The position numbers and the translations under genes were made by a program. Of a stretch of DNA of 39,560 nucleotides, positions 4,642-28,119 are shown one piece after another. Under the pieces are notes generated by a model. The model made no database searches. It worked only from the letters and a program-made list of their open reading frames with translations, and was not told the DNA's origin. Position 1 is the first letter of the stretch. Every line of letters starts with the position of its first letter. Source of the stretch: Candidatus Aenigmatarchaeota archaeon (GTDB lineage: Archaea; Aenigmatarchaeota; Aenigmatarchaeia; CG10238-14; SCSR01); NCBI GenBank assembly GCA_016177025.1, contig JACOWB010000009.1:1-39560 (forward strand), read 5' to 3'.

Positions 4642-4744
4642 GCTGGAGTCGCCTAACCAGGTATGGCACGAAATCCGAAAGGATGTGTAAGGTTGCTAAC
4701 CTCGCGCAGCTTGCTGCTTGCGAGTTCAAATCTCGCCTCCAGCG
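4642..4744 (+). tRNA. tRNA-Ser(GCT) with predicted 19-nt non-canonical intron (about 4672-4690)
   Basis: Acceptor GCTGGAG/CTCCAGC with G73; D-arm GCC-TAACCAGGTAT-GGC; variable arm GCAG-CTTG-CTGC; T-arm GCGAG-TTCAAAT-CTCGC; removing AATCCGAAAGGATGTGTAA restores CGAGG-TTGCTAA-CCTCG. Confidence 0.85.
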
Positions 4745-7275: not shown

Positions 7276-7362
7276 GGGTTCGTAGTCTAGTGGTAAGGAA
7301 CTTTCACTCTAGGACTGGTCTTTGACGTGGACCGAACAGGAGTTCGATTCTCCTCGAACCCA
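7276..7362 (+). tRNA. tRNA-Val(GAC) with predicted 15-nt non-canonical intron in the D-arm (about 7300-7314)
   Basis: Acceptor GGGTTCG/CGAACCC with A73; anticodon arm GGTCT-TTGACGT-GGACC; T-arm AGGAG-TTCGATT-CTCCT; removing ACTTTCACTCTAGGA restores D-stem GTC/GAC. Confidence 0.8.
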
Positions 7363-7367
7363 CTTAT

Positions 7368-7700
7368 TTATGGTTTACCTGAAATAGGTGAAATAATTTT
7401 CTGCCTTAAATCATCGGCTTGTTTTTTATATGTGTCAGCTTTACCAGGTTTTTGTGATGCCAACTCGTCAAGACGTGCTGCTTCTTGAGATCTTTCATTC
7501 CGCAATTCATCATCAGAAATCATCCCGAATGCTTTTTGAATCGCTTCGCCCGCACGTTCAATCCCATAAATAGGACTTTCTGGACCAATATTTTTCCCTG
7601 ATATTTTATCGGTAGCTACTGCCAGACCGCCTGCACCAATCACTCCACCTAGAATTAGTAGAATGCTTAAGGCTGGGACTATTCCATTCAAAATTACCAC
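7368..7700 (-). CDS. Secreted/membrane-anchored protein, DUF5667-like
   Basis: N-terminal hydrophobic segment, then GPESPIYGIERAGEAIQKAFG... Confidence 0.5.
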   Translation of the reverse strand: MVILNGIVPALSILLILGGVIGAGGLAVATDKISGKNIGPESPIYGIERAGEAIQKAFGMISDDELRNERSQEAARLDELASQKPGKADTYKKQADDLRQKIISPISGKP

Positions 7701-7729: not shown

Positions 7730-7814
7730 TAATTTATATTCTAGTGGCAGGACAGTACCTTGACGAGGTATACTCAATTTGGTACAGACAGGAGTTCGAT
7801 TCTCCTCGAATCTA
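7730..7814 (+). pseudogene. tRNA-Val(GAC)-like sequence with degenerate 5' acceptor and possible 14-nt insert in the anticodon 3' stem
   Basis: 23-nt exact match to tRNA-Val T-arm region (acaggagttcgattctcctcgaa); D-loop CTAGTGG; GTACC-TTGACGA-GGTAC after removing one GGTA-bounded 14-nt unit; 5' acceptor does not pair fully with CGAATCT. Confidence 0.6.
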
Positions 7815-19489: not shown

Positions 19490-20965
19490 TTAACCTTTTA
19501 CATTTCCGATTGGAGTGAATCGTACTACTTTCTTGGATATACCAGCCAAGTGTGTCGCTTCAATGACATCGTCGATGTTTTTGTACGCTGATCCAGCTTC
19601 CTCAGCCAATCCAGAAAATGAAACTGACTTGACATAAATTCCTTGCTTCAGCATATCTCTTTGTAACTGTTCACCACGGAACATGCCTTTAGCTCTTGTC
19701 CTGCTCATTGTCCTTCCTGAGCCGTGAGCTGTTGACATGAAAGTTTCTGCTGCATTAGGACCACCAACTAACAAATAACTACCGGTCTCCATGGAGCCAC
19801 CAATAATTACTGGGGATCCATCGTCACGATATAATTTTGGAATTTCTTCCCTTCCAGCAGGATAAGAACCTGTAGCTCCTTTTCTGTGTACGATTAGCTC
19901 TTTAGTTTCTCCATCGACTTTATGTCTTTCAACTGATGCTCTATTATGCGAGACGTCAAAAACCATTTTCAATCCTAATTTTTCTGCATCCTGCTTGAAA
20001 ACATCAGAAAAAACTTCCCTGATTCTATGTAAGATAACTTGCCTATTAGCAAAACTCATGTTAACTCCGCATGCCATAGCTTTGAAGTAATCCTGTCCTT
20101 CTGGAGAATTGAAAGGTGCACATGCAAGTTCTGGGTCTAAGATTTTAATTCCATATTTTTTCTCCATCACTGATAGGAATAATTGAAGATAGTCAGTCCC
20201 AATTTGATGGCCAAATCCTCTTGAACCGCAATGAAACATTATTACAACTTGATTTGGAAACAGCCCCCATTTCTTTGCTAGCTCTTTGTCGAAAATATTT
20301 TCCTCCTTCACAACTTGTATTTCCAGATAATGGTTACCAGAGCCTAGTGTGCCTATTTGATTGACTCCTCTTTCGACAGCCTTGGATGAAACCTTAGATA
20401 CGTCTGCCCAATCTGCTTTTCCGTTTAATTCCGTTCTTTCCAAATCCTCTTTCCACGCATATCCATTATCCACACACCATTCTGTACCTTCGGTTACAAC
20501 TTTTCTGAATTGGTCCTTAGTTAGTTTAACGAACCCGCTAGAACCAACACCCGCGGGAACTTTGTCGAATAATTTGTCGACTAGAGTTTTTAGATGCGGC
20601 TTGACATCATTATAAGTAAGATTTGTTAGAACAAGTCGCATACCACAATTTATGTCGAACCCTATTCCACCAGGAGAAATCACTCCATTCTCTTCTGGAT
20701 CAAATGCAGCTACGCCCCCTATCGGGAAACCATATCCGCTGTGGCCATCTGCCATGCAGAAGGCAAATTTTTGGATTCCTGGCAAGTTTGCAACATTTGT
20801 TATCTGGTCGTATACCTGCAAGTCCATCTGATCTACAATCTTTTTTGTGGCGTATATCCTAGCAGGAACTTTCATTCCTTGCTTGAAACTAGTAGGTACT
20901 TCCCATACTACATCTGACACTTTCTTGAAGTCGGGTTTCTTGAATATTTGATTTCCGAATGGCAT
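19490..20965 (-). CDS. rtcB: tRNA-splicing ligase RtcB
   Basis: AFCMADGHSGYGFPIGGVAAFDPEENGVISPGGIGFDINCGMRL; GTLGSGNHYLEIQ; FHCGSRGFGHQ; TAHGSGRTMSR. Confidence 0.97.
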   Translation of the reverse strand: MPFGNQIFKKPDFKKVSDVVWEVPTSFKQGMKVPARIYATKKIVDQMDLQVYDQITNVANLPGIQKFAFCMADGHSGYGFPIGGVAAFDPEENGVISPGGIGFDINCGMRLVLTNLTYNDVKPHLKTLVDKLFDKVPAGVGSSGFVKLTKDQFRKVVTEGTEWCVDNGYAWKEDLERTELNGKADWADVSKVSSKAVERGVNQIGTLGSGNHYLEIQVVKEENIFDKELAKKWGLFPNQVVIMFHCGSRGFGHQIGTDYLQLFLSVMEKKYGIKILDPELACAPFNSPEGQDYFKAMACGVNMSFANRQVILHRIREVFSDVFKQDAEKLGLKMVFDVSHNRASVERHKVDGETKELIVHRKGATGSYPAGREEIPKLYRDDGSPVIIGGSMETGSYLLVGGPNAAETFMSTAHGSGRTMSRTRAKGMFRGEQLQRDMLKQGIYVKSVSFSGLAEEAGSAYKNIDDVIEATHLAGISKKVVRFTPIGNVKG

Positions 20966-28034: not shown

Positions 28035-28119
28035 GGCCCCGTGTGGAAATTGGATATCCGAGGAGGCTTCGGAGCCTAGGAGCAACCTCCGGTTGAGGGT
28101 TCGAGTCCCTCCGGGGTCA
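28035..28119 (+). tRNA. tRNA-Arg(TCG) with predicted 12-nt intron at about 37/38 (about 28073-28084)
   Basis: Acceptor GGCCCCG/CGGGGTC with A73; D-arm TGGA/TCCG; T-arm GAGGG-TTCGAGT-CCCTC; GGAGG-CTTCGGA-CCTCC after removing AGCCTAGGAGCA. Confidence 0.82.

Follow-up and report, generated by a model that had tools for sequence, protein, structure and literature searches.

A probable BHB intron in the D-loop of an archaeal tRNA-Val(GAC) gene

A tRNA-Val(GAC) gene with extra sequence in the D-arm

The question raised by this locus is whether extra sequence in the D-arm of a tRNA-Val(GAC) gene is an intron and, if so, which nucleotides would be removed and by which enzymes. The gene lies in the window, that is, the whole stretch of 39,560 nt analysed here, which is one entire contig (C15) of an archaeal draft genome (571 kb in 23 contigs, about 86% complete) and also encodes an archaeal RNase P RNA. 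The initial annotation had read 7276-7362 as tRNA-Val(GAC) with two copies of AGGA (7296-7299 and 7311-7314), and the sequence, the coordinates, the AGGA copies, the anticodon arm and the Val(GAC) identity are all confirmed. The match to RF00005 spans exactly 7276-7362 and scores 47.0 bits, against 63.0 bits for the intronless orthologue of a congener (G003). The uninterrupted parts of the gene are listed below.

7276-7362, + strand: tRNA-Val(GAC) gene in its precursor form (RF00005, 47.0 bits; structure parse)
7276-7282 and 7355-7361: acceptor stem, GGGTTCG and CGAACCC, with discriminator A at 7362
7317-7333, + strand: anticodon arm GGTCT-TTGACGT-GGACC, uninterrupted, with anticodon GAC at 7324-7326

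The gene has no encoded CCA. Its acceptor, anticodon and T arms are all intact, and the extra sequence is confined to the D-arm. For the same segment, the default run of ARAGORN reports Glu(CTC) and the run that permits introns reports Gln(TTG), both of which are miscalls; the Glu identity was dropped, since the Glu-like stretch CTTTCAC sits within the intron described below.

Location and structure of the predicted intron

We scanned the gene for canonical bulge-helix-bulge (BHB) structures, and it turned out that there is a single match, with an outer helix AGTCT/GGACT (the D-stem plus A9-T26) and a 4-bp central helix AGTG/CACT. The MFE fold of the precursor gives the same BHB structure, whose parts are as follows.

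7295-7310, + strand: 16-nt intron AAGGAACTTTCACTCT at tRNA position 20/21 in the D-loop (sole canonical BHB in the gene; product equal to the D-arm of the intronless orthologue)
7285-7288, + strand: GTCT, 5' strand of the D-stem and of the outer BHB helix (BHB scan, MFE fold)
7312-7315, + strand: GGAC, 3' strand of the D-stem and of the outer BHB helix (BHB scan, MFE fold)
7289-7292, + strand: AGTG, exon strand of the central BHB helix (BHB scan, MFE fold, relatives)
7305-7308, + strand: CACT, intron strand of the central BHB helix (co-varies in G004, AATG/CATT)
7293-7295, + strand: 5' bulge GT-A, with the predicted 5' splice site after 7294
7309-7311, + strand: 3' bulge CT-A, with the predicted 3' splice site after 7310

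In a canonical BHB, the cut falls between the second and the third residue of each bulge (PMC4307357), and this rule, applied to the AGTG/CACT BHB, therefore predicts the removal of 7295-7310, which is 16 nt between positions 20 and 21. Excision of these 16 nt yields a 71-nt cloverleaf whose D-arm, GTCT-AGTGGTA-GGAC, has a loop of 7 nt. A length of 16 nt is most likely for the insert, rather than 15 nt, because no other canonical BHB exists in the gene, the MFE fold contains this one, and the D-arm that it leaves matches a natural intronless one. Thus, the D-arm insert that was claimed for this tRNA-Val(GAC) is indeed present, while its length, given at first as 15 nt, is better read as 16 nt in view of the BHB and the D-arm of G003.

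How easily such a structure arises by chance depends on how strictly it is defined. A loose BHB search, used in the first shuffle test, matches 62% of shuffled sequences and is too loose to inform, and the central-helix pairing at fixed splice sites gives p ~0.045 for this gene alone. The single gene by itself is weak evidence against chance, and the family comparison is strong evidence.

Comparison with relatives

The D-arm pattern of Val(GAC) is matched in five of the six genomes of the genus. In G003, Val(GAC) is intronless and its D-arm GTCTAGTGGTAGGAC reads GTCT-AGTGGTA-GGAC, letter for letter the predicted product; Val(GAC) of G005 is intronless as well. D-loop introns are found in Val(GAC) of G002 (16 nt; 4/4 central pairs, AGTG/CATT), of G004, where the flanking sequence is similar (13 nt; 4/4, AATG/CATT), of G012 from another genus (14 nt; 4/4, AGTG/CACT) and of G001 (16 nt; only 3/4). 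The interiors of these introns cannot be aligned among the genomes, and all of the genes splice to GTCTARTGGTAGGAC under the same rule. One central pair has changed on both sides in G004, from AGTG/CACT to AATG/CATT. Taken together, 19 of 20 central pairs are formed over five genomes, which was reached in none of 200,000 intron shuffles with fixed splice sites, although this joint test treats related genes as independent and so overstates their independence. When the precursors of G001 and G004 are folded, their MFE structures lack the full BHB.

Besides, two other tRNA genes of G005 have insertions in the D-arm. Its tRNA-Glu(TTC) (L186, G005:C3:16452-16533) contains an 11-nt D-loop intron with the same place and BHB anatomy (helix AACG/CGTT), and its tRNA-Val(TAC) (L162/L183, G005:C2:5142-5226) has an insertion of about 13 nt in its 3' D-stem region.

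Proposed splicing and alternative explanations

The properties of archaeal BHB introns are found at this locus: a 4-bp helix with two 3-nt bulges, a canonical tRNA restored by excision, co-variation of the helix, and EndA and RtcB genes in the genome. We consider it very probable that the insert is an ordinary archaeal BHB tRNA intron in a non-canonical place, which would be cut by EndA and joined by RtcB into a standard tRNA-Val(GAC). If the gene is transcribed, the precursor would fold with the D-stem GTCT/GGAC as the outer helix, and the canonical BHB would be completed by base-pairing of AGTG of the D-loop with CACT, which lies towards the 3' end of the intron. EndA would then cut each of the 3-nt bulges (at 7294/7295 and at 7310/7311), RtcB would join the exons into a standard tRNA-Val(GAC) with the D-loop AGTGGTA, and the 16-nt intron would be set free.

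A different excision, of a 15-nt unit between the AGGA direct repeats (7296-7310 or shifted), had been proposed in the initial annotation. It gives an acceptable D-arm with an 8-nt D-loop AGTGGTAA, and Val(TAC) of the same genome does have an 8-nt D-loop (AGTGGTTA), but no BHB with symmetric 3-nt bulges supports the 15-nt unit, and the D-loops of the G003 orthologue and of a second Val(GAC)-like copy at 7730 are 7 nt long. The AGGA repeat is absent from the D-loop introns of G001, G002, G004 and G012, yet the BHB rule, applied to these introns, predicts an identical 7-nt loop. Excision between the repeats is thus not supported by conservation in relatives, and we regard it as improbable. The repeat arises from A21 and the 3' strand of the D-stem (AGGAC), echoed inside the intron; because of this echo and the absence of the repeat in relatives' introns, it looks incidental. 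The pairing of AGTCTAG with CTAGGACT, which had been suggested across the insert, was rejected, as it leaves a 1-nt bulge and no BHB and the canonical AGTG/CACT BHB explains the sequence better.

The insert might also be retained, either in a pseudogene or in a tRNA with an enlarged D-arm, and Val(GAC) copies do decay in this genome, as illustrated by a copy about 370 bp downstream.

7730-7814, + strand: second Val(GAC)-like copy (RF00005, 27.3 bits, below the cut-off)

In this copy, the acceptor stem forms 4 of 7 pairs, the D-loop is uninterrupted, and the anticodon loop contains a 14-nt intron resembling those of G001 and G002. It is probably a decayed paralogue or pseudogene, not an intact backup. 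All stems of the 7276 copy, however, are intact, and no second intact Val(GAC) gene turned up: the check for one in the genome (about 86% complete) gave no uninterrupted gene, the sole other copy being the decayed one with its own intron. Moreover, a homologous insert is kept, with co-variation of the helix, in other genomes and in another genus, so that retention seems highly improbable. An assembly or sequencing error, through slippage at the AGGA repeats, could be suspected in a contig of a draft genome fragmented into 23 pieces, but same-site introns with different sequences in four other genomes contradict it and leave it a negligible probability. As for the surroundings of the two copies, which carry different intron sets, a minus-strand ORF at 7368-7700 without a Pfam match separates them, and no acceptor half was seen by eye upstream of the 7730-7814 copy.

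tRNA introns across the genome

The predicted 16-nt BHB intron of Val(GAC) is the only intron assigned to the D-arm in the host genome. According to RF00005 matches, about 25 complete tRNA genes were found, of which about 20 contain introns and five do not (Gly CCC, Ala TGC, Asn GTT and two Leu). The introns are mostly 11-16 nt long and mostly located at 37/38, while others lie in the anticodon arm around 27-34. In the automated parse, a perfect (4/4) central helix occurs in 10 of 20 parsed intron genes, against 2.6 expected (p ~0.001); these counts are approximate, since the single-intron parser misreads the intronless Leu tRNAs with a long variable arm (L018, L020) as well as two-intron or short-outer-helix tRNAs (L013, L014, L022, L025).

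Several of the other genes are worth recording. The tRNA-Gly(TCC) gene (L013 1501-1596) is apparently interrupted twice, by an intron of 12 nt near 29/30 and by another of 11 nt at 37/38. In the window, tRNA-Arg(TCG) at 28035-28119 has a 12-nt intron at 37/38 and is reported by ARAGORN only as 'tRNA-???', and ARAGORN misses tRNA-Ser(GCT) at 4642-4744, the anticodon stem region of which is interrupted by a 19-nt intron. The introns of tRNA-Trp, elongator Met and Lys (L005, L011, L008) are longer (33-43 nt) and have in common a motif close to GATGAYAGAAG as well as a stretch on the 5' side with the potential to pair with the anticodon loop. Introns like that of tRNA-Trp exist in other genera of the family, such as L159 (G016) and L161 (G007), and these long introns may represent a conserved structured intron.

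Splicing enzymes of the host

The expected exon ligase is encoded in the window itself.

19490-20965, - strand: RtcB RNA ligase of 491 aa (Pfam PF01139, E 6e-163)

Its closest relatives are from MAGs labelled Aenigmatarchaeota, with best matches 74-84% identical, and these matches place the host most likely within the Aenigmatarchaeota lineage of DPANN archaea.

The genome has one EndA gene (L037 145-714, - strand, G000:C14), which encodes about 190 aa with PF02778 and PF01974, and exactly one PF01974 match is present in 16 of 17 family genomes. The homology of the family proteins to EndA is clear, and the Tyr and His of the catalytic triad are kept. The third residue of the Tyr-His-Lys triad is replaced: at the position of Lys156 of M. 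jannaschii, all 14 aligned family EndAs (loci L037, L123-L126, L201, L203-L206, L208-L211) have Ala, in the motif NIRATM. The change from Lys to Ala is also visible against the solved EndA structure 1a79. The solved chain 3iey_A has an insertion similar to that of the family EndA, but there the Lys is kept. A basic stretch, KLKRGPK, is conserved in the family just before the catalytic His.

Generally, Tyr, His and Lys are the three residues conserved in all four EndA types (PMC6379350), and given the Ala in place of the catalytic Lys, the cleavage competence of this EndA is assumed. In reviews, non-canonical introns are associated chiefly with EndA enzymes of the (alpha-beta)2 and epsilon2 types; the sole EndA found here is alpha-like, with no detectable second subunit.

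Relation to known introns and significance

The initial annotation called the D-arm a rare non-canonical position, which is fair, but the case is less surprising than that suggests: position 20/21 has already been listed among the non-canonical intron sites of archaea (PMC4090602), D-arm introns are cleaved in vitro by crenarchaeal EndAs (PMC4307357), and most tRNAs of the host have introns. Because of this list and this cleavage, the D-loop 20/21 intron is an already known kind of interruption, and what is new is its instance in an Aenigmatarchaeota tRNA-Val(GAC). With the listed non-canonical BHB introns (PMC4090602) it shares the short length, the 4-bp helix and 3-nt bulges, the location outside 37/38 and the presence of EndA and RtcB, whereas the rich sources there are Crenarchaeota and Nanoarchaeota. 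Sulfolobus tokodaii tRNA-Glu(UUC)/(CUC) and Aeropyrum pernix tRNA-Thr(UGU) likewise have BHB-like D-arm introns, the cleavage of which was studied in vitro (PMC4307357), but they are other tRNA species served by a crenarchaeal (alpha-beta)2 EndA, while the host has a lone short alpha-type EndA. In Thermoproteales, as in the host, most tRNAs are interrupted, some more than once, and the spread of one intron sequence among tRNAs has been reported (PMC4090602, PMC8450103); these are, however, an unrelated lineage, and the host introns are mostly 11-16 nt. We found no dedicated study of tRNA introns in Aenigmarchaeota/Aenigmatarchaeota in the open-access literature.

In conclusion, a clear D-loop intron is added from DPANN archaea with comparative support, and its presence varies among close relatives. 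Such tRNA genes are miscalled by a standard tRNA finder (ARAGORN, as Glu or Gln). The larger value of the Val(GAC) precursor is as a natural substrate for an EndA whose catalytic lysine appears to be missing. We put forward only tentatively, as something that may well prove otherwise, that one short EndA, without the catalytic lysine and without a detectable second subunit, splices the mostly interrupted tRNA set of this Aenigmatarchaeota family, including position 20/21. If this is true, the lysine would be dispensable or replaced, for example by KLKRGPK, and a homomeric alpha-type EndA would be able to serve non-canonical positions.
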